NCBI GenBank assembly: GCA_903813345.2
Contig: CAIIXF020000003.1
Coordinates: forward strand, 20,166,931 to 20,230,930
Direction of reading: 5' to 3'
Length of the DNA: 64,000 bases
From: Owenia fusiformis
Taxonomy: Eukaryota; Annelida; Polychaeta; Sabellida; Oweniidae
The stretch's first letter is position 1. Every line of letters begins with the position of its first letter. Below are positions 43,824 to 64,000 of the stretch, piece after piece. The notes under the pieces are model-generated. The model was given only the letters and a program-made list of their open reading frames with translations. It was not told the DNA's origin and searched no databases. A program made the position numbers and the translations under genes.

Positions 43824-44586
43824 TTCATCATTACATTGTTTGCATCATTAACATTGGTTGCATCATTAACCTTGGTTGCATCATTAGCATTGGTTGCATC
43901 ATTAGCATTGGTTGCATCATTAACATTGGTTGCATCATTAACATTGGTTGCATCATTAACATTGGTTGCATCATTAACATTGGTTGCATCATTAACATTG
44001 GTTGCATCATTAGCATTGGTTGCATCATTAGCATTGGTTGCATCATTAACATTGGTTGCATCATTAGCATTGGTTGCATCATTAGCATTGGTTGCATCAT
44101 TAACATTGGTTGCATCATTAACATTGGTTGCATCATTAATATTGGTTGCATCATTAATATCGGTTGCATCATTAACATTGGTTGCATCATTAGCATTGGT
44201 TGCATCATTTACATTGGTTGCATCATTAACATTGGTTGCATCATTAACGTTGGTTGCATCATTAACATTGGTTGCATCATTAACATTGTTTGCATCATTA
44301 ACATTGGTTGCATCATTTACATTGGTTGCATCATTAGCATTGGTTGCATCATTAGCATTGGTTGCATCATTAACATTGGTTGCATCATTAACATTGGTTG
44401 CATCATTAATATTGGTTGCATCATTAATATCGGTTGCATCATTAACATTGGTTGCATCATTAGCATTGGTTGCATCATTTACATTGGTTGCATCATTAAC
44501 ATTGGTTGCATCATTAACGTTGGTTGCATCATTAACATTGGTTGCATCCTTAACGTTGGTTGCATCATTAACATTGGTTGCATCAG
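43824..44586. repeat. 18-bp minisatellite (about 42 copies) beside SLC7 exon 1
   Basis: Unit GGTTGCATCATTAACATT with variants (AGC, TTTAC, AATAT, AACGT). A block around 44,131 recurs at 44,401, exactly 270 bp or 15 units later, with the same order of variants, so a higher-order unit has been duplicated. Because 18 is a multiple of three and the unit lacks stops in several frames, long frames (up to 306 codons, on both strands) run through it. They are repeat artefacts. The array ends about 45 bp before the acceptor of exon 1. Confidence 0.95.
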
Positions 44587-44631
44587 CAAGCACAGAACAC
44601 ATTTTGAATTTTGGCTTCTTTTTACTCAGGT

Positions 44632-44809
44632 ATGACATCAGAAGATGGTTCAAGTGCAAGACAAAGGCCACCCTCGCAAGCACTGTCAGACACACCTACA
44701 TATGAGGGATATTCAAATGGCTCATTGAAACCTGGCGAATCTGAAGTGACACTTAAGAGACATGTTGGACTTATGGGAGGAGTCTCACTTATTGTGGGTA
44801 CTATGATAG
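44632..44809 (+). CDS. SLC7A9-like: SLC7 exon 1: N-terminal tail and start of TM1
   Basis: 59 codons plus one base, starting [11 protein letters not shown]. The cytosolic tail is hydrophilic (Ser, Pro, Glu). The conserved [20 protein letters not shown] block leads into TM1. Donor G/GTAAGG. A pyrimidine-rich CAG at 44,629 suggests that the 5'UTR is spliced on from farther upstream, across the minisatellite. Confidence 0.9.
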
Positions 44810-47800
44810 GTAAGGATTTTTATAGTAGGATATTCTTTTCATTATCAGTGTACCTGTATACAGCTTGGGTTTTAAGGAATGATATTGTGTTTTCAAAATA
44901 TTTTTGAAAATAACACAGATAACAGGTTACATGTAAAAATGACATATTTATTCAAGTTTCATAGAAAAAAGACCATCAGCATTACACCCACAATAGACTA
45001 CAATACTATATTGATTATATTTGCCTATCAACAATTTTTTCAGGATCGGGTATATTCATCTCCCCTAAGGGAGTGCTAGAAGGCACAGGAAGTGTGGGTC
45101 TTAGCCTGATAGTGTGGAGTTTAGCAGGAGTACTCTCCATGTTAGGTATGCAGATCTGAGTTTCAACTTTTTTATTAATGGTAATGATATAGAATTAGAA
45201 AGTTAAATCAGTAAATTGATTGACATAAAAAGAAAATTCTAAATATGAAGATGCTTTTTTGTATGATGAACTAATACCTGCATAAAATATTTTTTAACTA
45301 TTTATTAAAATTATGGTAATATTTTAATTATACTCCAGATTTTTTTATGAGAACATATTATATTTTACATTAAATATATGTATTATAGGGGCACTTTGTT
45401 ATGCAGAGTTAGGAACATTAATTGCTAAATCAGGGGGTGAATGGGCGTACCTGAAAGCAGCATTCAATGATATTCCCCCTTTCCTGATGGCCTGGGTTTC
45501 AATTTTACTTCTGAAGCCCTCCTCTATGGCAATCATATCCCTATCGTGTGGGGAATATGTAACGTTTGCCATGTTTTCTGACAGTGATATATGCCCATTA
45601 CCCCCTGTCTTGATCAAAAAACTGATTGCTGTAATGGTCATTGGTAAGCTGATTGCCGTCTGATACCGCAGATGCATTATGGGAAACCTCTATTGGAATA
45701 TTATTTTCATCCTTTTTTTCTGAAGGGGAAATAGAGCAACCAGTTTCTTGCAGTAGTTGCATCATATTAGTACAATCTACTCCTAAATTCTTTCACCAAT
45801 GTGTAATCAACAATTAGTCCTTTTCACCATGCTAAATAATTCCTCTATCTTAGATATCAACATATCTTTATCTGTAATATTAAATGCCCTTTTTAAGAAC
45901 TATGAAGAAATATTACATTTCATGAATTTCATCATGGGCTTCAGAGAAGCTCTAGAATACCCAGAACTGCATTAATATCACTAGGGCAGAGCATTTGTAC
46001 TGAAAGGAGCGTTTTCAGTACAAATATGTACTGAAAAATATACTAGTTTTGTTTCAGTACAAATTTAAGTATATTTTTGTACTGAAAAATGCACTGAATT
46101 TTTTTCAGTATATTTTTCAGTACAAATTCATGTACTGAAAAAATACTGAATTTTAAGTACAAATTTAAGTATAAATATGTACTGAAAAATGTACTGAATT
46201 TTAAGGACAAATTTAAGTGCAAAAATATACTGAAAAATGCACTGAAAATTTAAGGATAAATTTAAGTACAAATATATACTGAAAAATGTACTGAAATTTA
46301 AGTGCAAAAGTCAGTATAAAAATGTACTAAAAAATATACTGAAATTTAAGGATAATTTTAAGTATAAATATATGCAATGAGAAATATTTGTGCCCAATAA
46401 TGGAAAGAGAAAACGTAAATGTAAGGCATACTTTATAAACTCTAAATCACTCAAAAAGTTCTTAGAATGGTGAAAATGTGCATGATTTTAAAAGATTTTT
46501 TGACCGGGGGGGGGGGGGGGTGGGGGGGGGTTAGCTTGGACCCCTGAACCCCCCCCAGGAATGCTATTACATTATGAAATTATTTTGGATGCTTCCTTTA
46601 TAGCAGACTTTAACCAAACTTAAAAGAGTCTCTGTAATCAGGTTTGTTTTGCCTTGTCAAAATATTTTGTTTTGTTAATGGATTAATAAAGTTTCTTTAG
46701 ACACATCCTTTAAAGCAGACTCTAATCAAACTGGAGAGGCTAGGTTTACTTTAATCAAGTGTTTTCCTTTTAATAAGTTATGTTTTTGGATTTAATTATT
46801 TAAGACGCATCCTGTAATAATATCTGATTGCATTTTCTCCATCAATAAATTTCTTTTTAGCCCAATCAAACCCACGGGGTACCATCAAATAATTTTGGCA
46901 ACGTACCGGAGAACGACATTTTACTAAGAAATGGCAATAATTGAGCACAATATATTTTTTAACTCGAGTTCTACTTTGATTTTGACAAAAGTAAGTATTC
47001 CATGCAATGGCTATTTCATTCATGAGTTTGAAGGAATTCTGTTGGAACCCAGTTCTGATCAAGTACGAAGTTATTGAAATCGGCGCAGTCGGACTTTACT
47101 CCGAAAGATGGTTTTTCGATTATAACTTTTTACAACATTTAAGTATAGACTTTTGAAAAAAGTACAGAATAGTCCTTATACTATTGAATAATTCTGTTAT
47201 TTCTGATTCACACGACTCTGATTTGTTTAATTAAAAAAAAAGTTTTAAAAATATTACTTAGGAACGTAACCGGAGCTGGGAACGTAACCGGAGCAGATCA
47301 GTTGAATTATATAATTTAAAAAAATACAATATATGATTTAAAGCATACATATTATTTACAAACACATATGAATGTTAAAATGAGCATTTATTACCCTTCA
47401 CTTACAGGAAAATCAATGCATGGCAATTAGTATAAATTAGAAATTAATTAGAAATTAGTATAACAGAGTGGGTTCTAATAGTTCGCTGAACAAATACAAT
47501 GGGTGAAATCAAATGGAATTATTTGCTTACTACATTTAATCACTCCATTCTCCATACAATGATTGTTCTATGTTTGATAGCCTTTCTAAGGTAAGTGCAC
47601 TTATGCATGGTAAATACCAAATTTAATTTTTCACAATGGATAATTTTTTTTCTTTAAATAAAATGTAATAATTACGCATTCGAACAATCCCGTATGTTTT
47701 TAAATTAGATGTGCTTTAAATCTGTAACGGGGCGAGTGTAAGGCCCGTGGGTGGCAAATAAAAGTAACAGATAACTAAAGTTAAAATATATAAAATAGTC

Positions 47801-50800
47801 TATTTCAAATAAACTTCAAACGTTCTCTGTACAATCTACATTATCATCTAACTCTAAGCAACTACTGAGGCTGGGCCAACACCCAAACTCAGCTACATGT
47901 GAGTGAATGCTATTATATGGAATACAAAAACAGTACGAAACAATCACACCATGAAAAGCTAAAAATTGCTTTAAATAAAGGAAGATAAAGTAGAAAGTAT
48001 ACAAAATAATTGAAAACATTGGAATTAAATATTTGAAACACTGGTGTAAAGTAATGAAGGGACCTGTTAAAATGACATGGGTGGGGATTGGTCAATATGA
48101 AAAGTAGAAATATAAACAATGTGAAAATGACCATGTTACAAATCATATATATTAATTTTTTGATTAAATAATTCAACTGATCTGCTCCGGTTACGTTCCC
48201 AGCTCCGGTTACGTTCCTAAGTAATATTTTTAAAACTTTTTTTTTAATTAAACAAATCAGAGTCGTGTGAATCAGAAATAACAGAATTATTCAAAAGTAT
48301 AAGGACTATTCTGTACTTTTTTCAAAAGTCTATACTTAAATGTTGTGAAAAGTTATAATCGAAAAACCATCTTTCGGAGTAAAGTCCGTCTGCGCCGATT
48401 TCAATAACTTCGTACTTGATCAGAACTGGGTTCCAACAGAATTCCTACAAACTCATGAATGAAATAGTTATTGCATGGAATACTTACTTTTGTCAAAATC
48501 AAAATAGAACTCTAGTTAAAAATATATTGTGCTAAATTATTGCCATTTCTTAGTAAAATGTTGTTCTCCGGTATGTGCCAAAATTATTCGATGGCACCCC
48601 GTGAAACCTATCAAATATAATGCATATATAAGGGTTATGTACTGGGAGGTTTTGGATACCCATATTTCCTGAGGGATAAACCCTTTATTTAAAACTGATC
48701 GTACATAACATGTGTATTCCATACCTTTTGAGGTTTCTAGATACATTCTACCTTATTAAGTTCTAAAATTCAAAAACATTAAAGGTACACATTTTCTCAG
48801 TCTTAAAAATAAGTTTTTCATGAGATTTCCACTCATATTGCTTGAGCAAATTAATTAATTGATATCAAAATTAAAATATATAACATGAACATAGAACCTC
48901 ATTTGTTCTAGTATAGCAAAATCCATGGTATAGATGTCAAAGTCAGGAAGATGTCGTAATTCAAAATCTAAGTATATTTTCAGTATAAATTTACACTTAA
49001 ATATGCCCTTAAATTTCAGTATATTTTTCAGTACATATTTGCACTTAAAATCACACTGAAATTTCAGTATATTTTTAAGTACATATTTGCACTTAAAATC
49101 ACACTTAAAATTCAGTATATTTTTCAGTATAAATATATACTGAAAAATGTACTTAAAATTTCAGTACATTTTTCAGTACATATTTATACTGAAATTTGCA
49201 CTGAAATTTTAAGTATATTTTTCAGTACATGTTTATACTGAAAAATATACTTAAAAATTCAGTACATTTTTCAGTACATATTTGTACTGAAAACGCTCCT
49301 TTCAGTACAAATGCTCTGCCCTGGTGAATACTTCACTTTTAGTTTCTTTCAGCCTTAAGGCTGTTTCTTCAGACTACCTTCCATACAAATTTCTTTCAGA
49401 TTCTGAATCAGTAACTCTTATTGTTGCTTGTTCCTTGTTCTCATTGACTGTCTTCTGTATGTGTGCTATGTATCATCACTTATCCCCAAATTAGGGGCAG
49501 AATGAGCAATATGAAAGCTGCATTCTGATTTGTTACTCTGTTCTTAGGTGCACTCTCATTGGCTGAACTAGGCACTCTAATCCCCAAATCAGGGGGAGAA
49601 TGGGTAAACATGAAAGCTATATTCTGATTGGTTACTCTATTCCTAGGTGCACTCTCATTGGCTGAACTAGGCACTCTAATCCCCAAATCAGGGGGAGAAT
49701 GGGCATACATGAAAGCTGCATTCCCTTCAGATATTCCAGCTTTCTTATTTTCCTGGTGCTCAGCCATTGTCATAAAGACTTCATCCGTGTCGATAATCTC
49801 CCTCACATGTGCAAGGTACATCGTTGCGATTGCATTTCCAAACTGTGGTACACCAGAGACTATACAGAAATGTATCGCAGCTGCTGTCATTTGTGAGTAG
49901 GGTAGTCTTTTTCAGGGTAGTCTTTTTAGAATAGTCATCAAGTACACTGCAGTAAAAGTGTGAAGAGGAACCCCATTCAAGTGGAACAGTTTTTATTGGC
50001 TCCATATTAAAGGTTCTCTCCACATGTTTCCACTTACACAGAATTTACTGTAGTACTTGATTTGGATAGACATTGTATCTCCACCCATCCAGTAATTGAT
50101 GTCACAGTATTTGTTAAGGTTGCTTATAAAATATTGAACAGTTATCTTAATGGTTTGGTGATGCTTTGGTTTAGATCCTTAATTACATTGGAATCGTAGT
50201 TATTTTTGTTGATTCTGGATACATAAAAAGATCACCACTAAGGTGTAGGTTTCAGAACCTTTTCAGTGTGTGGCTTATGATGACCTTACTACCCTTATTG
50301 GTTTTTGCTGATTGTGGATTCATATAAAGATCTCCATATGTCCATGATCCACTTTGTAAGGTGTAGGTTTCATTAAGAACCTTTTCAGTATGTTGTTTAC
50401 GACAACCTATTTTCATATAGAGGATTAATGCCATATATGAGTTGATAGATAATGACTCCCAGCATCCAAAATGTAGCATAGGAGGTATATAAGCTAGTAT
50501 GGAGACCTGGTATTGCTTTTGACAATTCCCTATCCAAAAATTTACCAACTGCAAAGATGTTCAATTCTATATAATATGTACATTGCCAAATATTTCTTTT
50601 GTAGGTCATTTGAAAAATCACCATTTCATATTTTAGCTTATCATAAGGCTTTAAGTATGATATATATTCATGATGATGATGTCTGTTATATCATGGTGGT
50701 GTATTTCTTGTCACGATGATAAACATTATTCAATAAAATATACAGTCATATACAGTACACAAAATATGGTCAACATTTTTTTATAGCATATTGGGGGTTA

Positions 50801-53800
50801 TATTTTTTATTTACATGGAAATGTTTCATATTTCTGAGATCACTGTTCCACAACTAGTTACTTTGACGGAACGTCAATGTAATAAAATGGATGAACTTCC
50901 TGGTTACGAGTTTTTTGTTTTTTTGATTTAAACCTACTTATAAGTCAAGTTGCAGATTATAATTTGGCACAAAGCTAGAAAATATAGTCTTGTTTTACTA
51001 AGTTTCTTCGATTTTGAATCTGTTTTGTAAATTAAGTTGCAATTCATATATTTAGCCCCTCGCTTTTGTTACATTGATGAAAATCCGTTATATTACCAAT
51101 GAATGTTACTTTGACGACTTATGTCAATGTAACAAAAGTGATGGTCTAAATGCGTGAATTACACCTTTATTTAAAAATCAAATTCCAAAAAGAAGAAACT
51201 TATTAAAGCTGGACTATAGTGTCTAATTTTGTGCCAGATAATAATCCGCAACATAACTGATAAGTAGGTTTAAATCGAGAAAACAAAAAACTCATATCCA
51301 GGAAGTTCATCCATTTTGTTACATTGACGTTCCGTCAAAGTAACTAGTTGTGGAACAGTGTGAGATTGTCATATTCTATGGAATATTCTGCCATGTTCTA
51401 TGGAAAATATACTATGCAAGGTTGTCATTACCAGTGTTTAATTAAGGAATAAATAATGATAGGCCATTCAATATGGTGAAATTCAGCACAAGTTGGACAG
51501 AATGTTGTTCAAAGCACGAACCGAAGGTGAGTGCATTTGTACTAACATTCTGTCCAACGAGTGCTGAATTTCACCATATTGAATGGCCTATCATTATTTA
51601 TTCCGATTCAAACATAAAAATTAGTAAAAGCCGTGTCTGTGGAACGGGCATGAAGGAAGAATACGCATGCTGTCAAGATTCTGAAGTCGGCCGGAAAAAT
51701 TTTAGAATTTGTTTGGGCTGTTCTATTTTACTCCCCGTTTTAGATTTTATACGGTGTATAAACTTGAAGTCAGCCATAGTTAAATAGTTACAGTAGTTAC
51801 GGAGGGAGTAAAAAAGAACAGCTATCCCCGGACAGAGCCCCAGATGTGCAGCTGAGATGTGACGTCACTCAAAACAATGCAAATTGCAGATTGAATAGAG
51901 CATGGTCGTGCATCTATGGAGAATTAGAGAACGTTCTATATTGGCTATGCTGCATTCTGATTGGTTGAGAAATTCGAATAGAGCACGGTCATGTTTGAAT
52001 ATAGATTAGATAGAAAGGTCAGCAAAAGTACTAATACAAGATATCCTACCCTAGGGGCTTTATGTTATGCTGAGCTAGGAACCCTACTGGCACAATCAGG
52101 GGGAGAATACATCTACTGGAAGGTGGCATTCTACCCTTTTGATTCGTTAGCTTTTATGATGTCATGGTGCAGTATCGTGGTGCTTAAACCATCAAGTGTT
52201 GCTATTATTTCTCTTACGTGTGCTGAGTACATTGTTGTCATGAGCTTTGGAGATGATTGTCCCGAACCACAGCTCATCAAGAAGTGTCTCGCTGCTGCTA
52301 TTGTTTGTAAGTGGTTGAGCTTGTTACCTATTTGCTTACAGCATATTAGACCACACTTATATATGACAGTTGCTTATAAATCGGTACTTTGTTTTTATGA
52401 TTTATCATTCATTAGTGAAATATTGTTCTAGACTGTAGTCTTGTGTCATTCAAACATCAGTACTCCCTATTCTTAGTGTTGATAACTGTAAGGGGGTAAA
52501 AGGACTAGATCTGTCGCTAAAGACGATTCTCGGTTTGGAGAACAGTCTCCTGGGCTAATATTTTTTTTCATGAAAAATATAAAAATATTACCCAAGTTAA
52601 TCTATGAATATTCAAAAGAGGACATTTAGATCTACAAGATGTAAAAATAACAAATTGGTCTGAAGCAGGGATAACGCTCAATTAGACCGATTCAATAAAA
52701 TACAAGTCTCGATTTGGGGAAAGAAGTTCATCAGTGCACTGCGCTAATATTTTTTTGCGAAAAATCTAGAAATATTGACCAAATTAAATTATGACTATTC
52801 AAAAGAAGACGTTCAAATCTATATTATGTAAAAAAATCAAGTTTGCCCGAAGCAGGGATAATGCTCATTTAGGTTGATGAACTGCGTTCTCCAAACCGAG
52901 AATCGTCCTTTGCGGTATTTAGGGTTCACTGATTTTACTAATCATGCCATCTTTAATTTACTGTGATCTTATTTTACCGTATGCCTAATAGTAATTCTTA
53001 CTCATAATTCTGTTTCTGCTTGCATACATTTATGTTAACAACTTTTCCATCTGACTTCAAGCGCCACCACCAGTTAGCAATTTGCCAGATAATTAAGGAT
53101 AAAATACTGTTTAAGGGTAGAATGATGGATTTATTTTCATTTCATGCTACAGAGCTGACATTTTGGATCTGACATACTTTAACCTATTTCCTTCATGCCA
53201 ATCTGTGTTTATTTCAATCATGTACAGAAGTGTTATCTTTACAATATAATATGTATGATTTAAAGGAAGCACTCAACATAAAGAATCAATGTTTATTTGG
53301 TCTTTTGCTTCAATCATATATACATGTAGTTATAATGTATTGTGAAAAACAGACCTTTTTAGTACCCTGTGTCTGTTTTTGGAACTTACAATATGGTCAC
53401 AAGTCATTGTTCGTCAAATACTAGACAATGGTTTTCTTGAGGATGTTACACAATGTATCTAAAAGAGAGAAATGCTCTTCATTTTAGAAGAGTCTGTGGT
53501 TCAAGAAGTTCAAAAAACACCAACTTTATCGAATATGAGAAACATCTCTGACTTTGTATTTAATAGGAGCTCTGAGCTATGCTGAACTAGGAACATTAGT
53601 ACCTCAATCTGGTGGTGAATATACATACTTGAAACATGCCTTCCATCCTTTTGAGGTCTTTGGCTTTTTGTTTGCTTGGATGAGAATGATTGCGATTGTG
53701 CCATCAGGCATGGCTGTCATTCCTCTTACATGTGCGGAATATATTGTCGCCATCATGTTCCCGGATTGTGAATCACCTGTTGTAATTAAGAAAATGTTAG

Positions 53801-56800
53801 CGGCTGCTGTGATATGTAAGTGTGTTTCTATTGGCCTCCATCTGTTTATTCAGCTTGACGTTTGATCTTTTTCTTGTAGCCTATTGATACGTGCACTCAC
53901 TCTTTGCACTATTAATACCGTATGCTGAAAAAACGCAAGCTAGACTAGACCATGTCATACCTTAGATACACTCTCTGATTCTCTGACGTTGTATTTCACA
54001 GGAGCCTTGTGCTATGCTGAGCTAGGGACATTAGTACCTCAATCTGGAGGCGAATATGCATACTTGAAACATGCCTTCCATCCTTTTGAGATCTTTGATA
54101 CGTGCACTCACTCTTTTCACTCTTAGTATCGTATGCTGAAAAAACGCAAGCTAGACTAGACCATGTCATACCTTAGATATCTGATTCTCTGACGTTGTAT
54201 TTCATAGGAGCCTTGTGCTATGCTGAGCTAGGGACATTATTACCTCAATCTGGAGGGGATTATGCATACTGGAAAACTGCATTTCATCCTATCGATGCCC
54301 TTAGCTTTTTATTTGCATGGACGAGTATGATTGTGATCAGGCCGTCAAGCATAGCTATCATTTCTCTGACATGTGCGGAATATATTGTCGCCATCATGTT
54401 CCCAGATTGCGGATCGCCTATTTTAATTAAAAAAATGTTAGCAGCAGCTGTGATCTGTAAGTGTTTTTTTTATATTGGCCTTGATCGGTTAATTCATCTG
54501 GTTGTTTGACCTTTTTTGACCTTTTTCCTATGACCTATATGCACACACACTGCGTCTCTCTCTGCACACACCTTTTGCTGTATGTTGGTTTTTTTCTTCT
54601 TCTTTTTATTACCATAGACAAGAGGAGGACGAGGACATTGATCGGGGAGGTAGGGGGGGGGGGCAAAATGTCATTTTGAAGCATAAACAGGAATATTCCA
54701 TAAATAAGGCCATTTCATGAAATAAGACCTAATATATGGATGAAATAAAAACACTTTTATAATTCAAGTTTCCAATTTCTCATCTTCGAGAGGAAGATTT
54801 GTTTTGTTTGTTACGATCTTTTTACCAAGATGTCAGTCTGTAGTTACCAGTTTCACCACCAGGTGACTAATTCGGGTCTCATGTTAGACTATGGCATATG
54901 ACAGAAAAGACTCTAACTTAGAATTTTCAGTAGATTCAGAATCTTTTTGAGTTTTTCTTGTATAAAATCCTCTCTCGATTGTAAACACTTATCTACAGTG
55001 AACATTTTTTGTGGCTCCATAGGTGTTCACAATTTACAGGTTTTCCTGTATTTTTTATGTAGATTTCTTATATGGCATCACTTTTACTGAATTTTGAATC
55101 TTTAATGATGTAAATCAGGATCATCTCTATTCTCTTCTTGCATCTTAGTAACTCTAATCATTTATAAATATCTACTTTCCTTTTATTCCCGAGAATTGAT
55201 AACAAGAGTGACCAGTTTTATACCAAGTCCCTGTTGGTTCAATGTTTTATGAAATGAGACAATAGGGAGTGTAGGTACAGGCCTGGAGTTGGACACAAAT
55301 TCCAGCAATACATGTCATTGGCTTTTACTCTCCTTTGCCCTTGTTAAGAGCAGATTAAATCCCAGTTTGTTCCCAACACATAAACATCTTAGTTTTTAAG
55401 AACACAACCTGTATATTTAAGACCATAGTATACATTTATAATAGGCTTATACCCCATTTTATTTTGAATCTGAATTGAACACATTCATATTCTCTGTATT
55501 TCACCACCCTCCCCACCTGTTTTTTTTTGATAAATTTTGTTTATTCTTGAAATATGCTTGACATCCCCTTAGTTTATTATATTCATATCATAGTAACTAA
55601 TAGAAATAAATGAGTTACATTAATTCTTGAAACAGTTCTGTCTAAAACAAATATTCCACTGTAATAATCTAAAATTATCAAAATATTTCTTAATTTAGAA
55701 TCTTGAGATCAAATATTTAAAAATATGATAATCTTTCAGAGGAAAATGTAGAAAAATAAATTGTTTAGGTTCTATATGTACAAACATATTAACAGTGATG
55801 AAAAAATTATATAAGACAGCTCAAGCAATTAATGGTATTGATATTAGGAAAGCTAGTTTACAAAGAAGCTTGAGAAGAAACTACAGTTCTCCATCAGAGC
55901 CTCAACATTTTTTTATTTTAATATTGTTTATCTATATTTTGTAGGTGTGCTAGATCATTGAAGAATGAAGATATATGGTCATACTAACTAAATCAATACT
56001 TCAATTCAGTGTTGTTATAATAAAAAGAGCATTTGTATTTTGTTGCTTTTAGGAGCTTTATTTTATGCTGAACTTGGTACATTTATTCCGAAATCTGTTT
56101 TCGCATTAATAAGTGCATTTGTATTTTGTTGATTTTAGGAGCTTTAGCATATGCTGAACTTGGTACATTTATTCCGAAATCTGTTTTCGCATTAATAAGT
56201 GCATTTGTATTTTGTTGATTTTAGGAGCTTTAGCATATGCTGAACTTGGTACATTTATTCTGAAATCTGTTTTCGCATTAATAAGTGCATTTGTATTTTG
56301 TTGATTTTAGGAGCTTTAGCATATGCTGAACTTGGTACATTTATTCCGAAATCTGTTTTCGCATTAATAAGTGCATTTGTATTTTGTTGATTTTAGGAGC
56401 TTTAGCATATGCTGAACTTGGTACATTTATTCTGAAATCTGTTTTCGCATTAATAAGTGCTTTTGTATTTTGTTGATTTTAGGAGCTTTAGCATATGCTG
56501 AACTTGGTGCATTTATTCCGAAATCTGTTTTCGCATTAATAAGTGCATTTGTATTTTGTTGATTCTAGGAGCTTTAGCATATGCTGAAATTGGTACATTT
56601 ATTCTGAAATCTGTTTTCATAATAATAAGTGCATTTGTATTTTGTTGCTTTTAGAAGCTTTAGCATATGCTGAACTTAGTACATTTATTATAAAATCTGT
56701 TTTCGCATTAATAAGTGCATTTGTATTTTGTTGATTTTAGGAGCTTTAGCATATGCTGAACTTGGTACATTTATTCCGAAATCTGTTTTCGTATTAATAA

Positions 56801-59800
56801 GTGCATTTGTATTTTGTTGATTTTAGGAGCTTTAGCATATGCTGAACTTGGTACATTTATTCTGAAATCTGTTTTCGCATTAATAAGTGCATTTGTATTT
56901 TTTGATTTTAGGAGCTTTAGCATATGCTGAACTTGGTGCATTTATTCCGAAATCTGTTTTCGCATTAATAAGTGCATTTGTATTTTGTTGATTTTAGGAG
57001 CTTTAGCATATGCTGAACTTGGTGCATTTATTCTGAAATCTGTTTTCATAATAACAAGTGCATTTGTATTTTGTTGATTTTAGGAGCTTTAGCGTATGCC
57101 GAACTTGGTACATTTATTCCGAAATCTGGAGCTGAATATGTTTATCTCCTAGAGGGATTTGGATCAAGGAATGAGAGAATTGGAGGCATTCCAGCTTTCC
57201 TATTCCAGTGGGTCTCTACCCTGTTACTTAAGCCATCCTCATTTGCTATCATTACCCTAGCTTTTGCATCCTATACCCTGGAGCCTTTTTTCCCAGCATG
57301 TGGACCCCCAGAGGTCATGTTAAAGTGCCTAGCAGCAGTCGCCATATGTAAGTCACCTCCTAGTTTATCATATAAGAACAACGAAGGAATATGAAACAAA
57401 GATTGAATAAGGGATCAAATCAAACATTTGGTATTGATTTTAACCTATTTACATGCTATTATTGTGTATTCAGTCAAGTTAGACTGGGAACAATCATGAT
57501 TTGCCAATAGATTGTGGTGGGAGCTAAATAGAGTGTGGTACTGCGCCACAGTCTAAAGCCTAGCGAGAGCCCTGATGTTGTAAGATAATTTCAGTAGATT
57601 TGTTTCATATTAAGGGGAAATGGGGAGGAGGGAGGGAAGATGGTTGAGTGAAAACATAGATCAGCAAGCTATAATCCCCTTTTTTTTTGTTTACAAGACT
57701 ATGTGAAAAGTTATAGACAAAGTGGGTGTTGGTATCGCCGTGATAATTCTAGTATTTATTGAAATTGAATTGATTCATGACCTCGATTTTGTTTTATTTT
57801 ATGCATTCATCGAGAAGTTGCGACATATTGTTACAGCTACTATTTGTTCGGTAATCAGCTTTGTCAGCATTCAGTGTCTTTAACAAATGGTTACACTGTA
57901 ACAAATGGTTACACTCGGTAACAAATGGTTACACTTTAGTTACAATCAGGTTAAGACATTTTGTCATATTTATGCCTTGCTATCAATAGAAAAGAAAATA
58001 GGTGAGTATGAAATCACATTTCCCAAATTTAATATTTAAGTCACCATTAACCGTAACATACATGTAACCTATCCTAGACCCACTGCTAAATAAAATTGAT
58101 TCATGTATAGTAAATGTATATTGTATACTACTATCATATAAAAAATGCCATTTCTCACTTTTAATAAGACAAATAAACCAAAATATATTTACTATACTCT
58201 TTAATATGATGAATGACATCACAATAAAAAAGACAATTTGGTTTATTTATCAAATGAGAAATATATGAGCTTAGACATTATAAAGAAATAATTTATTATA
58301 TAATGCACCATTAAGGTCTTTTCCCCTGAAATAATATATGTAAGAATATAAAATATTTCTGATTAATTTTATTATTTTTATTTATTTTAGTGGTCATTAC
58401 AGCAATAAATTGTTGGAGTGTGAGACTAGCAACAGGAGTTCAAGTATTTTTCACAGGGGCAAAACTTGTTGCCATGGCTGTCATCATAATAGGTGGCATC
58501 GCTATGTTGGCGAAAGGTTGGTTGGCATAGCAACGCTTATTTTAACCAACTGCATGAGGTTTTTCATTATTTTCTTGTTTTCATACTAACATTTTCATTA
58601 TTTTGTTTATTTGCATGGCTGTTTATGATTTCTGCTTTATTTTATGTTATGATTAGCATGTTTTATGTAAAGGGGTTGTTTCAAAAAATCAACATCTATC
58701 AAAAAAGTACATGGGTGGGGGCAGGGATAAAACACAGTTTATCCGACGCAATTACATCTATCAGGTTGATGAAGGTTCATTTACAGGGGAAGTTTGGGAA
58801 TTTATTCAAAATGAAACATTTTTTAAAAGATGTTGCTTTATTCACCCCCTAAAATGTCTCACTCTCATTCTTTCAATTGCTTGAGCTGTTTTTGTAACCT
58901 ATTTTCTTGTGGTTTATGAATCTAACATACATGTATGCAGACTGTTGTATGTTCTTACTGCATGCTTAATAAATCTATATGCCCCATTATTATGGGAACT
59001 CTTCTCTCATCTTAGTTGCTAAAATAACATTGTTTTATATTTTGGTTGCTATAGTAACTATTACTGCTGTTAACTGCTACAGTACTAAAGCTGCTAATAG
59101 AGTTCAGATAATCTTCACATGGATTAAGCTAGCTGCTATTGGTATTATCATAGTTGGAGGCATTGTGCGCCTTTTTCAAGGTACTAACACCATAAAGGTC
59201 TTGCGTCAAGTTTCTTAAACTTCACCCCATTTTTATGTCACAACCACAAGTGGTGACATCTTAGTCTCAATAGTCTCAATTGTAGACAACGTTTGGCTGG
59301 TTTGGTTGGTGTTTCATGTTTTGTTTCTGTAACAGGCATCTGTAACAAATAGCAGGTGGTGACATTTTGCATGTTAATGCCTTTTATATATTGCACTGCA
59401 CATCCTGTGAGGATGAGGTGTGTAGACTGAGGGCTTGACTCAAGACTAACATAAAAAAGTTTCTTAGGGATGTACTGTGAATGTTGACAGTTGTGGAAAA
59501 ATCAAGATAATATCATTCTGATTGAACCAACCCCTACCATTATAAAAAATTGAAAATGTGGATTAACAGTAAGTTGAATTTTCTAACAAAATACATTGTA
59601 TATACATAGTACTATAGAGTATTCTGGAACTAAAAATACAAATGCTCTAGTTTTAAGAGATTAACTTGTTTTGAAATGAAATTACTACAGATTGTAGAGT
59701 AACGTTATTACAACATATCTTTCAACTTTCATCACACATAGTCTCATATATAATCTTTCCAGGGAAATTGACTTCTTTCTTCCACAACTGTTATCAATTG

Positions 59801-62800
59801 GACACCAGCCCTTATAAAAATACTTTTAAAATTTTTTTTTTATTTATTTATCATTTCCTAATGAAAGATACAAGTATACAAATAACATAATACAATACTA
59901 GCAACAGCAACAGGTTGTGTAAAACTTACATTTTTTCTAATCAATATTTCAAAGTTAAATAAAAACTCTTAGTTTGGATGGTCTCCCTTTTTATATTTGC
60001 TAATAACATTTTGTGCCACTGAAATAACTAAATTAATTTTTTGACCTTATAATAATACTAACATCAATGATATATTCATTCTAGTATTTTTCACAAACTG
60101 ATATTTGGTATTTACAACAGATAATATAAAGGTTTCAAATGTAGTCTACTTGTCAATAAATCCATACATTTATTCTTTTGTAACCAATTAATAAACAAAC
60201 TAGGAGTAACGTGATAAAAAGAACTTTTTGATAACCTCCTCTTGACTCGTTCTCCTTATAATTTGCTTTGATGTTGTGATTTAAATATGAGATACTTGTT
60301 AGCTTCAGGAGATACTTGAAGTTTTTAATTATGGTATATGATAAAACATTTTGCTTCAAGGCCAAATAAAGTTCATTAAATGGTCTGTATTGTAGTTTTT
60401 ACGTACAGTTGCACTGCAAATTGTAAAACATTTATATTCTGGACTCTCTGGTTTTAATACTTTGTTCACTCAGCAAGATTTTTTTCATCAAATGCATTTT
60501 TGAAATCTAGATAAAAGGATGATGTTGTTAGACACAATAAAAGTAGCAAAAAACTGCTTTTGAGAGATATCTATTATCACTTAAATCGTGAAAGAAAGGA
60601 AAATTAAATTACATTAAAATACCAAAACATTTCACTGTATTTGTTTTGTGCTACCTTGTAAATCTTGCTCAATCTTTTTCCTTGCGAATATCCTATGATA
60701 TTTAACAATTTGTAAACTAAAAGTAATCAGTTCCTAAATCTTTTTTTAGGAAATACACAATACCTAACCAACTCGTTCGAAGGTACTACCAATAATTTTG
60801 GAACAATAGCCATTGGGTTTTATAATGGTCTATGGGCGTATGATGGCTGGTAAGATTTACTCATTTGAAACACTAAATTGTATTCACAATATAAATAAAG
60901 CCAAACACTGCCATAATGAACTTTGAATGCATTTAAGTTTTAGGCTGATATAAAGATGGCAGTGTGGTTTGTCTATATCTTTTGTAGTCTTACATCAGAC
61001 CTAAAAAATAAAGCACCCTCAAAATATGTTGAGAACTTTTGCTGTGATGGCACTAATGCTACAGTTTTGATTAATTAGTATGTCCACTGGTGATCCAAAG
61101 GATAATTACTTAAAAATATCCTTAAATGATGATATCACCTTACACTGGAAAAATTTACACATTGATAATTTGTGTTTACTGTATTTCAGGAACAATCTCA
61201 ACTATGTGACAGAAGAGTTAAAGAATCCATATGTGTAAGTATAGTTTTTTTTATGTCACCACCAGAAGTGATGACATATTGTTATAAGTCTCCAACTCTT
61301 TTGCAGATGGTGTTTGGCATTAGGCAGTCAGTGTTTGATGTCTGTAACAAATGACATGTGGTGTCATTTTGGATGTTAACATATTAATGCCTTGTATAGA
61401 CTATACTTTTTATATTGCATATTAAATTTCATATAAGATATAATTTGCATGATCAAGGAAAGGTGAGGGGGAAGCATAAGCTCTAAGAAAAAACTTTCAA
61501 TTTATTTTCGTTTCCTTATATTTCAAAAAAGACCTTAAATCTTATATATAACTTTAAATTTTGTAAAAATACAATTGTCTTATGAAAATAAAAAAAGTTT
61601 TTACTTAATTCATTTCAGCAATCTTCCAAGGTCTATTATGATAGCTATCCCATTGGTTACCATATGCTACCTATTAGTGAATATCTCTTATTGTTAACTG
61701 TTTTTATTTAATTCATTTCAGCAATCTTCCAAGGTCTATTATGATAGCTATCCCATTGGTTACCATATGCTACCTATTGGTGAATATCTCCTATTGTTAA
61801 CTGTTTTTACTTAATTCATTTCAGCAACCTTCCAAGGTCTATTATGATAGCTATCCCATTGGTAACCATATGCTATCTATTGGAGAATATCTCCTATTGT
61901 TAACTGTTTTTACTTAATTCATTTCAGCAACCTTCCAAGGTCTATTATGATAGCTATCCCATTGGTTACCATATGCTACCTATTAGTGAATATCTCCTAT
62001 TGTTAACTGTTTTTACTTAATTCATTTCAGCAACCTTCCAAGGTCTATTATGATAGCTATCCCATTGGTTACCATATGCTACCTATTAGTGAATATCTCC
62101 TATTGTTAACTGTTTTTACTTAATTCATTTCAGCAACCTTCCAAGGTCTATCATGATAGCTATCCCATTGGTTACCATATGCTACCTATTAGTGAATATC
62201 TCCTATTGTTAACTGTTTTTACTTAATTCATTTCAGCAACCTTCCAAGGTCTATTATGATAGCTATCCCATTGGTTACCATATGCTATCTATTGGTGAAT
62301 ATCTCCTATTGTTAACTGTTTTTACTTAATTCATTTCAGCAACCTTCCAAGGTCTATTATGATAGCTATCCCATTGGTTACCATATGCTATCTATTAGTG
62401 AATATCTCCTATTGTTAACTGTTTTTACTTAATTCATTTCAGCAACCTTCCAAGGTCTATTATGATAGCTATCCCATTGGTTACCATATGCTATCTATTA
62501 GTGAATATCTCATATTGTTAACTGTTTTTACTTAATTCATTTCAGCAACCTTCCAAGGTCTATTATGATAGCTATCCCATTGGTTACCATATGCTATCTA
62601 TTAGTGAATATCTCCTATTTCACTGTGATGGGATCAAGTGAATTATTGGCATCAGGAGCTGTTGCTGTGGTAAGACAGTTTATGGTTACCCTGTAGTTTG
62701 CTCACAAAAGCTCCATTAATGTTAGATATATTAATAATATTTTGATAAATGTCATCATTTGTTCAAATAAATTATAGATAAGAAGGAAATAATAGATCTA

Positions 62801-64000
62801 TGTTATGTAGAAATATACAAGTAATTATAACAGGGTAAAGATGAGGGAGATTAAAAGGGAATTCGATGAGTTTAGAGTAAATGAAAACAATTTTTTTCTT
62901 TCATCATTTCATGTCATGCCTAGAATTGGATGTCCCTTTTATATTTCATTTAAAACTACACAGTCCTATGTATGTGTTTTCTGATTGCAAATTGTTTATG
63001 GGGGTTTTATTCTAGACATGGGCAAACACTGTACTTGGACCAGCAGCAGTCATTATTCCAATCTCTGTTGCATTTTCAACTTTTGGGGCTGCAAATGGAA
63101 CTATGTTTTCAGGCGGAAGGTGAAAATATAAAATATCCCATATAGGATGTAAACCCATTATATAAATACCCTATTTACTCTTATAAATGCCCTATTTAAA
63201 TGCCCTGTTTACTCTCATTGTGTACCAAGCAAGTAGAATAAGTCAAATCACATATTACAACCCAGCTTTATTTATTCATTCCATCTTGATTGCCTTAAAA
63301 GTGCCCAGAATTTCAACTCCAGTAATTTCCCTGATCTCACTTCCTTCCCATAGATATCACCTCTGCATGAGACAGAATATAATGCACTTTTTATACAGAA
63401 TATGTTAGCTTATTCCTTGACCTTTATTGCTTTATAAGTAATATGATGATATTATGGCAGAATGATTTGGTTTGCTGTATTAAACTGATCAAAAATAGTG
63501 GAATTGGTCGTAAAAGAGTCAACATCACAGGACATCTGGATTGTATAGTTGAGACATACAACAATGCACTTTCTTATTTTAAGAGTCCCATTTCAGGATC
63601 CTTTATTACTGAGTTATAGAGGCAGACTATAGTTTTATTCCATGATTAGCAAGAAGCCCCATTTAATGCCCTTCCCTCTTGTATTCTTTGATTTGTATTA
63701 CATTTTAGGGATCTAATTGAACATATAGTCTTCATAGTATTTTTCTTCCAAAATTTTTATCACAAACCTATGCATGTTTTATTTTGAGAATATTCCAGAT
63801 TTTCAGATGCCTGCAGCTGTTTTACAACAAAAACAAAATTATTTACCTTTGGGAGGTCTTTTAATGTATAATATGCATTCTCAATCATGTTATTTATTCA
63901 GACCTGGGGAGACCAAGTGTTAGGTGTAATGGCCTGGCTGATACCCCTTTCTGTGGCATTCTCCACATTTGGAGCTGCAAATGGATCATTGTTTTCAAGT
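44632..64000 (+). CDS. SLC7A9-like: SLC7 (b(0,+)AT/LAT-type) amino-acid transporter with alternative exon cassettes, 3' end off window
   Basis: A heteromeric amino-acid transporter light chain: a 12-TM APC-family exchanger in the plasma membrane that pairs with an SLC3 heavy chain. Constant exons are 1 (44,632-44,809), 2 (45,044-45,145), 5 (60,750-60,849), 6 (61,190-61,234) and 7 (62,546-62,669). Exon 3 has six complete versions and exons 4 and 8 two each. Motifs in order are IVGTMIG/SGIF (unwound TM1 substrate site), AELGT, the heavy-chain cysteine, NCx[12 protein letters not shown] (TM6 gate), [19 protein letters not shown] and [21 protein letters not shown] and FSTFGAANG favour b(0,+)AT (SLC7A9) over y+LAT or asc. 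All junctions are GT/AG and phases agree throughout. TM9-12 and the C-terminus lie beyond 64,000. ATG at 44,632 is the first Met after an acceptor-like CAG (44,629), so an upstream noncoding exon is expected. Confidence 0.92.
45044..45145 (+). CDS. SLC7A9-like: SLC7 exon 2: rest of TM1 and start of TM2
   Basis: 102 bp, phase 1 to 1. Reads [19 protein letters not shown] and then the TM2 residues [19 protein letters not shown] is the unwound helix that contacts the substrate backbone in APC transporters. Acceptor TTTTTTCAG, donor GTATGC. Confidence 0.92.
45389..45643 (+). CDS. SLC7A9-like: SLC7 exon 3, version a
   Basis: 255 bp, phase 1 to 1, acceptor TATTATAG, donor G/GTAAGC. Begins [21 protein letters not shown]3 reads [14 protein letters not shown]. 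The heavy-chain cysteine is in SDICPLPP, preceded by an unusual FAMFSDSD instead of the FPxC seen in most versions. It is the only version ending in G (ATT G), giving Val rather than Leu at the junction with exon 4a. Confidence 0.9.
45982..49324. mobile_element. Long inverted-repeat element between exon 3a and 3b
   Basis: AGGGCAGAGCATTTGTACTG at 45,985 is matched by its complement at 49,320. Outer arms (about 45,985-46,370 and 48,970-49,320) are built from tandem TACTGAAAAATGTACTGAA and TTTAAGTACAAA words. An inner inverted pair of about 440 bp (46,862-47,310 and 48,172-48,608) carries two GGAACGTAACCGGAGC motifs per arm. A long G-tract lies at 46,506-46,530. No transposase was recognised. 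When transcribed as intron it could form a very long stem. Confidence 0.75.
49482..49646 (+). repeat. Two extra copies of acceptor plus exon-3b head (98-99 bp)
   Basis: The segment from ATCCCCAAAT of the exon through the intron end TTACTCTATTCCTAG and the exon start is present three times in a row (anchors 49,482, 49,580, 49,679). Only the third continues into a full exon. The earlier copies have an acceptor but no donor, and read into TGA in frame. This is local unequal duplication across a 3' splice site. Confidence 0.88.
49647..49892 (+). CDS. SLC7A9-like: SLC7 exon 3, version b
   Basis: 246 bp, phase 1 to 1, acceptor TATTCCTAG, donor T/GTGAGT. Begins [21 protein letters not shown]3 reads [14 protein letters not shown], with Thr in place of the near-invariant Pro of KPSS. 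The heavy-chain cysteine is in FPNCGTPE. Also differs in having ARYIVAI where most others have AEYIV. Confidence 0.88.
49949..50052. mobile_element. Tiny pogo-type MITE
   Basis: ACTGCAGTAAAAGTGTGAAG at the left and a TTTCCACTTACACAGAATTTACTG complement-like right end, with matching AAGTGGAAC/GTTTCCACTT arms. About 100 bp, directly downstream of exon 3b. Confidence 0.4.
50841..51360. mobile_element. 520-bp MITE with 6-bp target duplication
   Basis: CACTGTTCCACAACTAGTTA (50,841) and its complement (ending 51,360) are the ends of inverted arms of at least 75 bp, and weaker inverse similarity continues toward the centre. TGAGAT occurs directly on both sides (50,835-50,840 and 51,361-51,366), a clean target-site duplication. 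Non-coding. Confidence 0.88.
51446..51604. repeat. 159-bp hairpin
   Basis: GGAATAAATAATGATAGGCC and the following 45 bp are repeated as complement at 51,540-51,604, leaving a loop of about 35-40 bp. It is in the intron between exon 3b and 3c. The 104-codon frame at 51,473-51,787 is arm sequence. Confidence 0.88.
52055..52306 (+). CDS. SLC7A9-like: SLC7 exon 3, version c
   Basis: 252 bp, phase 1 to 1, acceptor CCTACCCTAG, donor T/GTAAGT. Begins [21 protein letters not shown]3 reads [14 protein letters not shown]. The heavy-chain cysteine is in GDDCPEPQ. It has the Trp-containing YWKVAF where others have YLK or YMK. Confidence 0.9.
52517..52912. mobile_element. Small element with inverted ends and internal duplication
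   Basis: GACGATTCTCGGTTTGGAGA at the left and its complement at the right (about 52,885-52,912). Between them a ~175-bp block containing GAAGCAGGGATAA and GCTAATATTTTTTT is present twice in tandem. Non-coding. Confidence 0.7.
53567..53815 (+). CDS. SLC7A9-like: SLC7 exon 3, version d
   Basis: 249 bp, phase 1 to 1, acceptor TTTAATAG, donor T/GTAAGT. Begins [21 protein letters not shown]3 reads [14 protein letters not shown]. The conserved K/R before PSS is Val, and the second Ser (LAT1 Ser144 position) is Gly, so the pocket is unlike the other versions. The heavy-chain cysteine is in FPDCESPV. The tail [10 protein letters not shown] is shared with version f, its neighbour. Confidence 0.88.
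53887..54207 (+). repeat. Duplicated acceptor and truncated exon-3 head (version e)
   Basis: The segment ATACGTGCACTCACTCTTT through the acceptor occurs twice (about 53,887-54,001 and 54,097-54,207). Between them 54,002-54,096 is the first third of an exon 3 ([19 protein letters not shown], then [13 protein letters not shown]). It then runs into intron sequence and an in-frame TAG, with no donor. The head is closest to version d, so it is a truncated duplicate. Confidence 0.85.
54208..54456 (+). CDS. SLC7A9-like: SLC7 exon 3, version f
   Basis: 249 bp, phase 1 to 1, acceptor TATTTCATAG, donor T/GTAAGT. Begins [21 protein letters not shown]3 reads [14 protein letters not shown], with Arg before PSS as in human LAT1. 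The heavy-chain cysteine is in FPDCGSPI. It lies only about 390 bp after version d and shares most of its 3' half, so this is a recent duplication that has diverged in the TM3 pocket. Confidence 0.9.
54460..56040. other. Intron, no exon recognised
   Basis: AT-rich sequence with a G-tract at about 54,650-54,662. No exon-3-like frame (AELGT or KPSS motif) is present in this stretch. Confidence 0.5.
56053..57083 (+). repeat. 86-bp array: twelve copies of acceptor plus exon-3g head
   Basis: Twelve tandem units starting at 56,053, 56,139, 56,225, 56,311, 56,397, 56,483, 56,569, 56,655, 56,741, 56,827, 56,912 and 56,998. Each has about 43 bp of exon head ([15 protein letters not shown]), about 16 bp of filler and the intron end TTTGTATTTTGTTGATTTTAG. 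The thirteenth head, at 57,084, continues into the full exon 3g. Each unit keeps an AG acceptor and reads to TGA in frame; no donor is obvious. Confidence 0.93.
57084..57347 (+). CDS. SLC7A9-like: SLC7 exon 3, version g
   Basis: 264 bp, phase 1 to 1, acceptor TTGATTTTAG, donor T/GTAAGT. Begins [19 protein letters not shown]. It is the longest and most divergent version, with extra residues (GSRNERIGG) in the TM2-TM3 linker. TM3 reads [14 protein letters not shown], closest in style to human b(0,+)AT. The heavy-chain cysteine is in FPACGPPE. Confidence 0.92.
57855..57950. repeat. Short tandem repeat AACAAATGGTTACACT
   Basis: Three copies of a 16-19-bp unit in the intron between exons 3g and 4a. 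Confidence 0.7.
58391..58516 (+). CDS. SLC7A9-like: SLC7 exon 4, version a
   Basis: 126 bp, phase 1 to 1, acceptor TTATTTTAG, donor G/GTTGGT. Reads [19 protein letters not shown], then TM5 residues ending MLAKG. This is the end of TM4, the cytosolic link and TM5. By hand alignment about half of its residues equal those of version b, with no gaps. Confidence 0.9.
59055..59180 (+). CDS. SLC7A9-like: SLC7 exon 4, version b
   Basis: 126 bp, the same length and phase as version a. Acceptor GGTTGCTATAG, donor G/GTACTA. Reads [19 protein letters not shown], then TM5 residues ending [17 protein letters not shown] is close to LAT1 (NCYSVKAATRVQ), whereas version a has [12 protein letters not shown]. 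This makes a clean alternative pair. Confidence 0.9.
59236..59400. repeat. Dispersed GGTGGTGACATTTTGCATGT repeat
   Basis: Intronic copy of the family also seen at 41,070 and 61,250, containing ACAAGTGGTGACAT, GTAACAAATAGCAGGTGGTG and ACATTTTGCATGTTAATGCC. Confidence 0.6.
60750..60849 (+). CDS. SLC7A9-like: SLC7 exon 5: TM6
   Basis: 100 bp, phase 1 to 2, acceptor TTTTTTTAG, donor TG/GTAAGA. Reads [18 protein letters not shown] followed by [27 protein letters not shown] matches b(0,+)AT almost exactly and includes the TM6 aromatic gate. Single copy. Confidence 0.92.
61190..61234 (+). CDS. SLC7A9-like: SLC7 exon 6: TM6-TM7 link
   Basis: 45 bp microexon-sized, phase 2 to 2. Reads [14 protein letters not shown] plus two bases, the conserved NLNYxTEEL motif. 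Acceptor TGTATTTCAG, donor GT/GTAAGT. Confidence 0.9.
61250..61400. repeat. Dispersed GGTGGTGACATTTTGCATGT-family repeat
   Basis: Begins 16 bp after exon 6 (ATGTCACCACCAGAAGTGAT) and carries the same ordered words as the copies at 41,070 and 59,236. Confidence 0.6.
61619..62545 (+). repeat. 103-bp array: nine copies of acceptor plus exon-7 head
   Basis: Units start at 61,619, 61,722, 61,825, 61,928, 62,031, 62,134, 62,237, 62,340 and 62,443, exactly 103 bp apart. Each has about 74 bp of exon head ([18 protein letters not shown], then LVNISY), 8 bp of filler and the intron end TTTTTACTTAATTCATTTCAG. The tenth head (62,546) is the real exon 7. Every extra copy reads into TAA (TAT TGT TAA) and lacks a donor. 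Near-identity between units indicates recent expansion or homogenisation. Confidence 0.95.
62546..62669 (+). CDS. SLC7A9-like: SLC7 exon 7: TM7 and following loop
   Basis: 124 bp, phase 2 to 0, acceptor ATTCATTTCAG, donor GTG/GTAAGA. Reads [18 protein letters not shown], then [20 protein letters not shown]. It is the only unit of the array that continues past ISY into a full exon. Confidence 0.92.
63016..63119 (+). CDS. SLC7A9-like: SLC7 exon 8, version a
   Basis: 104 bp, phase 0 to 2, acceptor TTTATTCTAG, donor AG/GTGAAA. Reads [18 protein letters not shown] followed by [16 protein letters not shown]. This is TM8. Same start phase and motif frame as version b 0.8 kb downstream. Confidence 0.9.
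63902..64000 (+). CDS. SLC7A9-like: SLC7 exon 8, version b (cut by window end)
   Basis: Phase 0 start, acceptor TTTATTCAG. Reads [18 protein letters not shown] followed by [15 protein letters not shown] and is open to the end. GVMAWLIP resembles LAT1 (GVMSWIIP), while version a has GPAAVIIP. The donor lies outside the window. Confidence 0.88.

Follow-up and report, generated by a model that had tools for sequence, protein, structure and literature searches.

We analyzed a 64,000-nucleotide window of the annelid Owenia fusiformis genome (assembly GCA_903813345.2, contig CAIIXF020000003.1, positions 20,166,931–20,230,930 of the forward strand), which carries most of a gene for an amino acid transporter of the SLC7 family with several tandem clusters of homologous exons. 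The rest of the gene lies in a fetched sequence (denoted L001) that continues past the window. The spliced protein is complete and belongs to the SLC7 light subunits, among which b(0,+)AT (SLC7A9) is closest to it. It matched 29 sequences in the PDB, with three b(0,+)AT sequences ranked first (6li9, E = 2e-167, query residues 49–513; the chain is probably human). The protein also matched the Pfam family PF13520 (AA_permease_2; 2.3e-62). Its best-scoring NCBIfam model was TIGR00911 (L-type amino acid transporter; 513.8 bits, below the cut-off of 701.8); this score is weak evidence, because the NCBIfam library was built for bacteria and archaea, and the model covers a broad subfamily without defining b(0,+)AT membership. 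Two SLC3A2_N matches above cut-off were found elsewhere in the same genome as candidates for the SLC3 heavy chain.

The exons follow one another along the locus in the order 3,3,3,3,3,3,4,4,5,6,7,8,8,8(,8), and every intron boundary of the gene model is GT–AG (Table 1). All 48 combinations of one exon 3, one exon 4 and one exon 8 (6 × 2 × 4) are uninterrupted and encode 513–522 amino acids; the 36 combinations that omit the divergent exon 8d, likewise all uninterrupted, encode 513–519. A tblastn search with the peptide of each exon except exon 0 over 74 kb (E up to 1) found no further full copies of exons 1, 2, 5, 6, 7, 9, 10, 11 or 12. The SLC7A9/b(0,+)AT-like gene very probably produces isoforms by using one exon 3 out of six, one exon 4 out of two, and one exon 8 out of three, perhaps four.

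The six versions of exon 3 (3a–3f) were proposed in a preliminary description of the window, and they stand as proposed: all six have the predicted lengths, an AG acceptor and a GT donor, run from phase 1 to phase 1, contain no stop codon, and conserve the motif AELGT. As was also proposed, the versions diverge strongly, with 45%–73% pairwise protein identity, and every pair matches by tblastn (E about 3e-16 to 5e-38). The preliminary description had further assigned a single heavy-chain-linking cysteine to every copy. Such a cysteine does lie within extracellular loop 2 (EL2) in all six versions, and in 3e it aligns with C144 of the b(0,+)AT chain 6yup; it shares a common alignment column only among 3b–3f, and it is single in the loop only, whole versions carrying two to five cysteines each. 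Introns of 392 to 4003 bp separate the exon-3 copies.

Exon 4 had been described as single. It is present in two versions, 4a and 4b, and exon 8, which encodes transmembrane helix 8 (TM8), is present in three copies (8a–8c) and a divergent fourth (8d). The exon-4 pair and the exon-8 set thus form a second and a third cluster of alternative exons in one gene, both missed in the earlier account. We kept 8d outside the firm set. It retains the length class, the splice sites and the frame, its conserved TM8 motif is lost, and its identity to 8a–8c is 9%–29%; it was matched neither by tblastn of the exon peptides over the 74 kb nor by the genome search with 8b. The alignment score of 8d was reached by 103, 1 and 3 of 2000 shuffles in comparisons with 8a, 8b and 8c, respectively; with the subset of paralogue exons used, it was reached by 0 (L018), 22 (L015), 9 (L013) and 13 (L017) of 2000, and with the 6li9 chain by none. 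Because so few shuffles reach the score, we retained 8d as a probable homologue. The DNA comparison is weaker, with shuffle fractions of 0.34 (8a), 0.008 (8b) and 0.24 (8c) over 500 shuffles.

Table 1. Exons of the SLC7A9/b(0,+)AT-like gene and repeats at its exon starts (window coordinates unless prefixed by L001)
Feature	Position	Strand	Description
Exon 0	39755–39785	+	Probable start exon, MDQRKSYISDG, phase 0 to 1; ATG and GTGAGT donor, in-frame join to exon 1; start choice inferred
Exon 1	44630–44809	+	N-terminus and start of TM1; single
Exon 2	45044–45145	+	GSGIF of unwound TM1, into TM2; single
Exon 3a	45389–45643	+	255 bp; last base G; EL2 loop with four extra residues
99-bp × 2.4 repeat	49482–49723		Acceptor and exon start, before 3b
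Exon 3b	49647–49892	+	246 bp
Exon 3c	52055–52306	+	252 bp
Exon 3d	53567–53815	+	249 bp
206-bp × 2.0 repeat	53884–54290		Acceptor and exon start, before 3e
Truncated exon-3 copy	54004–54096	+	31 codons, 90% identical to 3d protein; within the 206-bp × 2.0 repeat
Exon 3e	54208–54456	+	249 bp
86-bp × 12.9 array	56021–57128	+	Repeats acceptor and start of 3f; final unit is 3f
Exon 3f	57084–57347	+	264 bp; highest identity to b(0,+)AT among versions
Exon 4a	58391–58516	+	126 bp
Exon 4b	59055–59180	+	126 bp; 49% identical to 4a
Exon 5	60750–60849	+	Single; D233 equivalent kept
Exon 6	61190–61234	+	Single; N236 equivalent kept
103-bp × 9.9 array	61597–62619	+	Repeats acceptor and start of exon 7; final unit is exon 7
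Exon 7	62546–62669	+	Single full copy
Exon 8a	63016–63119	+	104 bp; TM8
Exon 8b	63902–64000	+	104 bp, the last 5 beyond the window (to L001:5)
Exon 8c	L001:797–900		104 bp; beyond the window
Exon 8d	L001:1235–1347		113 bp; divergent; beyond the window
Exons 9–12	from L001:3819		Beyond the window; stop codon at L001:5715–5717
40-bp × 2.7 repeat	L001:4320–4425		Acceptor-like text, before exon 10

We compared the versions by their proportions of synonymous (pS) and nonsynonymous (pN) differences. Synonymous divergence is near saturation in 14 of the 15 exon-3 pairs (pS 0.67–0.89, pN 0.24–0.39); the youngest pair, 3d/3e, has a pS of 0.38, a pN of 0.13 and a ratio of nonsynonymous to synonymous rates (dN/dS) of 0.26. 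The corresponding values are pS 0.76 and pN 0.33 for 4a/4b, and pS 0.40–0.68 and pN 0.16–0.31 for 8a–8c. This comparison, which the preliminary description had suggested, gave a pN below pS in 19 out of 19 pairs (8d not included), indicating purifying selection, and the third codon position was the most divergent in all 19. With synonymous sites near saturation and the protein kept, the copies are old and selected.

The exon edges bear on how many versions can be joined. The last base is G in exon 2 and T in 3b–3f; at the other end, 3d, 3e and 3f start with GA, as does exon 5, and exon 4 starts with TG or TA. Correct joins encode Gly and Leu or Val; joining one of 3b–3f to one of 3d–3f instead creates a T/GA stop, so that TGA appears at the junction in nine of the 15 ordered exon-3 pairs, and skipping exon 4 after 3e also gives an immediate stop. 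The pattern, with a Leu codon split T/TN at one end and a Gly codon split G/GA at the other, is a simple way in which split codons punish double inclusion. The residue of b(0,+)AT aligned with the split Leu is itself Leu, so the split codon is probably ancestral and the stop trap may be a by-product. Exon 8 is constrained by frame: its copies (104, 104, 104 and 113 bp) are all 2 mod 3, and a wrong number of them shifts the frame in 12 out of 12 cases (all six doubles, all four triples, the quadruple and the skip). Wrong splice products would presumably be removed by nonsense-mediated decay.

To place the clusters among related genes, we queried the genome with single exons. With exon 3e, 18 matches were obtained (E up to 1), namely the six versions and the truncated copy at this locus and 11 elsewhere. 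Two of these 11 (C3:29.3 Mb) come from a single split exon, and the two on C4 (14 kb apart) seem to belong to neighbouring genes, because an exon-1 match was found for each. Exon 4b gave nine matches, two here and seven elsewhere, one per locus. Exon 8b extended by the first part of exon 9 matched 11 times, at three sites here, none of them 8d, and at eight elsewhere, including a weak one (C1, E 0.36) and two on C10, 49 kb apart. Each further SLC7 locus that was found has a single match to exon 3, 4 or 8, if the split exon 3 at C3:29.3 Mb is taken as one; all these counts are lower bounds, as distant copies could escape.

In a tree of 15 exon-3 rows, with an outgroup of nine (six loci of the same genome, L002–L007, and three PDB chains; L008, L009, L010, L019 and L020 were excluded, their exon 3 being partial or split), 3a–3e form a clade (support 99/97), and this clade, 3f and the 6li9 chain join in an unresolved fork (74/91). 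Identity to the 6li9 chain is highest for exon 3f (57%, vs. 45%–51% for the other versions), and we therefore infer that this version is the ancestral type; 3a–3e would be a later expansion by tandem duplication. In the other clusters, 4a is closer than 4b to the 6li9 chain (51% vs. 43%), yet 4b is nearer to the three paralogues of the same genome that were compared, and 8a and 8b are equal (58%), the identity comparison having taken in a subset of the paralogue exons.

Mutually exclusive use of tandem SLC7 exons, the reading of the preliminary description, is the best supported; we infer the exclusivity from the two additional clusters, the enforcement of frame by exon 8, the junction stops, the near-saturated divergence and the single-copy exons at other loci. 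Splicing would then be not only mutually exclusive but also regulated. Several observations weigh against this. The lengths of exons 3 and 4 are multiples of three, and frame alone forces no single choice there: six of the 15 exon-3 pairs remain open (five starting with 3a, plus 3b–3c), as do inclusion of both 4a and 4b (556 amino acids) and skipping of exon 3 (431 amino acids). The loop of 3a is four residues longer than in the other versions, and its cysteine is displaced in the alignment. Constraint is weakest between 8a and 8c (dN/dS 0.59), synonymous saturation leaves the exact dN/dS unusable for most exon-3 pairs, and 8d may be a dying copy or an unusual variant. The tree shows neither the six versions as one clade nor 3f with b(0,+)AT, leaving the ancestry of 3f unsettled by the tree. 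The introns between the exon-3 copies seem longer than steric exclusion would allow, and no common docking element was found for the exon-3 cluster in four docking-selector scans, which set intron 2–3a and intron 3f–4a against its remaining introns.

In those scans, the docking score was reached by 8, 15, 0 and 54 of 60 shuffles. The one outlier is suggestive and held on retesting: none of 400 shuffles of the dock, 1 of 400 shuffles of the target and 2 of 792 unrelated intron sets reached its score. Its pairings are 9–12 nt long and fall on differing parts of the supposed dock, which the 3c pairing overlaps by a single base. Because the versions pair with different short stretches, we claim no docking site. 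No known RNA family reached its gathering score within the window.

The in-frame products listed above are what one would expect if exons 3 and 4 were optional cassettes, with zero, one or several versions included per transcript. We consider this improbable. Exon 3 encodes TM3 and parts of TM2 and TM4, and by homology two such segments, or none, should break the fold; a single choice of exon 3 or 4 thus rests partly on protein architecture. The junction stops in nine of the 15 exon-3 pairs speak against serial inclusion as well, and in exon 8 any number of copies other than one loses the frame.

It is more improbable still that only a single version of exon 3, probably 3f, is in use, with the other five in decay as dead duplicates. 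Dead copies do occur at the locus, as the truncated exon-3 copy and the start-only repeats illustrate: truncated remnants and repeats of acceptors alone lie in the same introns, and 8d looks degraded. We simulated neutral decay in a simple way from three starting exons, with assumed rates, including that of indels; one copy remained open and in phase in about 0.6%–1.7% of runs with indels and in 2%–16% with substitutions only. Neutral copies rarely lasted in this simulation, and six open, in-phase copies with splice sites, despite synonymous change near saturation, bear out the earlier view that these are not dead duplicates; exon 4 and 8a–8c are alike in this.

The repeats are themselves part of the architecture of the gene, in that five tandem arrays sit at or directly before its exon starts. 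Twelve further units of the 86-bp repeat precede 3f, and nine start-only copies precede exon 7. The 11 acceptors found by text search upstream of 3f all lead to a stop at 130–138 amino acids, and the nine upstream of exon 7 all lead to a stop at 303. The arrays may act as decoys, or they may be only the residue of slippage that could also have produced the exon copies. Tandem repeats are present as well in the 26 kb fetched around the paralogue at C3:29.3 Mb, in which tblastn at E up to 0.01 found no repeated exon start, although short starts could escape.

Collapse of several tandem genes or haplotypes into one locus, by misassembly or gene duplication, is exceedingly improbable as the source of the versions. 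Tandem whole-gene duplicates do seem to occur nearby, where there are two genes resembling that for glycine-cleavage H protein (GCSH-like); protein identities of 45%–73% are too divergent for haplotypes, and the clusters are ordered and come without an extra full copy of exons 1, 2, 5, 6, 7 or 9–12 in the tblastn search described above.

We mapped the alternative exons onto the known fold to see what they exchange. In 6yup numbering, exon 3 covers residues 79–160, including C144, exon 4 covers 160–202, and exon 8 covers 292–326. With helix limits that we take from homology and general knowledge of the family, the variable exons cover TM3 and the loop that carries the heavy-chain cysteine, TM4/TM5, and TM8, and the fixed exons hold the unwound helices TM1 and TM6. 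D233 and N236, the cation signature of TM6, are both conserved, in the single exons 5 and 6. TM3, TM4 and TM8 belong to the hash domain. In a structural account, EL2 is disulfide-bonded to rBAT and TM4 packs on an rBAT helix, the substrate site lies between the hash and bundle domains, D233 and N236 are tied to selectivity, and TM3 and TM8 also participate in substrate recognition (PMC9110406). With the TM1 and TM6 exons fixed and the TM3 loop, TM4/TM5 and TM8 swapped, the isoforms should share one exchange mechanism; they would differ in substrate preference or affinity and in SLC3 heavy-chain pairing. The activity expected of the b(0,+)AT type is exchange of cationic and neutral amino acids and cystine. 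There is a parallel in CAT-2, in which alternative exons in the TM8–TM9 region separate a low- from a high-affinity form (PMC7584565). That the alternative exons are real while their choice is noisy and the isoforms functionally equal is just as improbable as an assembly artefact, since the versions differ in the very helices involved in binding the substrate and the heavy chain (PMC9110406) and the old copies have each been kept.

Taken to its full extent, mutually exclusive choice in all three clusters would make the gene a combinatorial transporter, a proposal that we put forward tentatively and regard as somewhat doubtful in its entirety. The substrate-backbone core (TM1/TM6) would be fixed, and TM3 with the heavy-chain loop, TM4/TM5 and TM8 would be swapped independently, giving 36–48 exchangers that differ in substrate range, affinity or heavy-chain partner. 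Wrong products would be purged by the exon-8 frame and the split-codon TGA, and output might be tuned by the decoy-acceptor arrays before 3f and exon 7.

Other features of the window lie in or near the gene. The intron between 3a and 3b holds a fold-back element of ∼3.3 kb (45978–49327), with end arms of 67 nt at 97% and inner arms of 367 nt at 97% complementarity, which is probably a mobile element. Inverted repeats occupy 50841–51360 and 51446–51604 in the intron between 3b and 3c, and an 18-bp × 42 minisatellite (43826–44585) ends about 45 bp before exon 1. On the minus strand are the two tandem GCSH-like genes (16582–17859 and 30141–31949), together with a fragment (25345–25410). Two GCV_H Pfam matches were found in the whole genome, both of them here, and several exon matches of the two genes are weak.

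The nearest solved protein by sequence is b(0,+)AT (SLC7A9), and equivalents of its C144, D233 and N236 are present in the Owenia gene; no exon array is known to us from the vertebrate SLC7A9 gene. The cationic branch of SLC7 works without a heavy chain, and the Owenia gene, a light subunit with a heavy-chain cysteine, differs in this from CAT-2 and slc7a1a. These two are nevertheless among the closest precedents: SLC7A2 (CAT-2A/CAT-2B) and zebrafish slc7a1a (exons 6a/6b) are likewise SLC7 genes in which a helical region close to the substrate path is encoded by alternative exons. They belong to the cationic branch and have a single pair at a single site, from the latter half of TM8 into the first half of TM9, compared with three sites and up to six versions here (PMC7584565). 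The preliminary description knew of no SLC7 gene with such an array; exon pairs are in fact described in the cationic branch (PMC7584565).

Outside the family, Drosophila mrp, an unrelated ABC transporter, is likewise a membrane transporter with interchangeable homologous exons, eight in number (PMC9741552). Arthropod Dscam likewise has several tandem clusters of homologous exons, with one pick per cluster (PMC5740500, PMC6071210). Its arrays are far larger and have a described docking-selector pairing (PMC6071210), of which none is shown here. A literature search, conducted mostly on listings and with thin coverage of subscription journals, turned up neither an SLC7 exon array nor a heteromeric SLC7 light subunit of this layout. 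The three-cluster layout in a heteromeric light subunit appears to be new; exon pairs in SLC7 and exon arrays in transporters were already known.

If expressed as predicted, the gene would be a natural mix-and-match library of exchangers, in which evolution has sorted the fixed from the variable helices in advance. Such a library would be a direct way to ask which helices determine the choice of substrate and the pairing with the heavy chain; defects in this family cause cystinuria (PMC9110406). Exclusive splicing in several clusters, of which the adhesion receptor Dscam is the best-known case, would then extend into nutrient transport.

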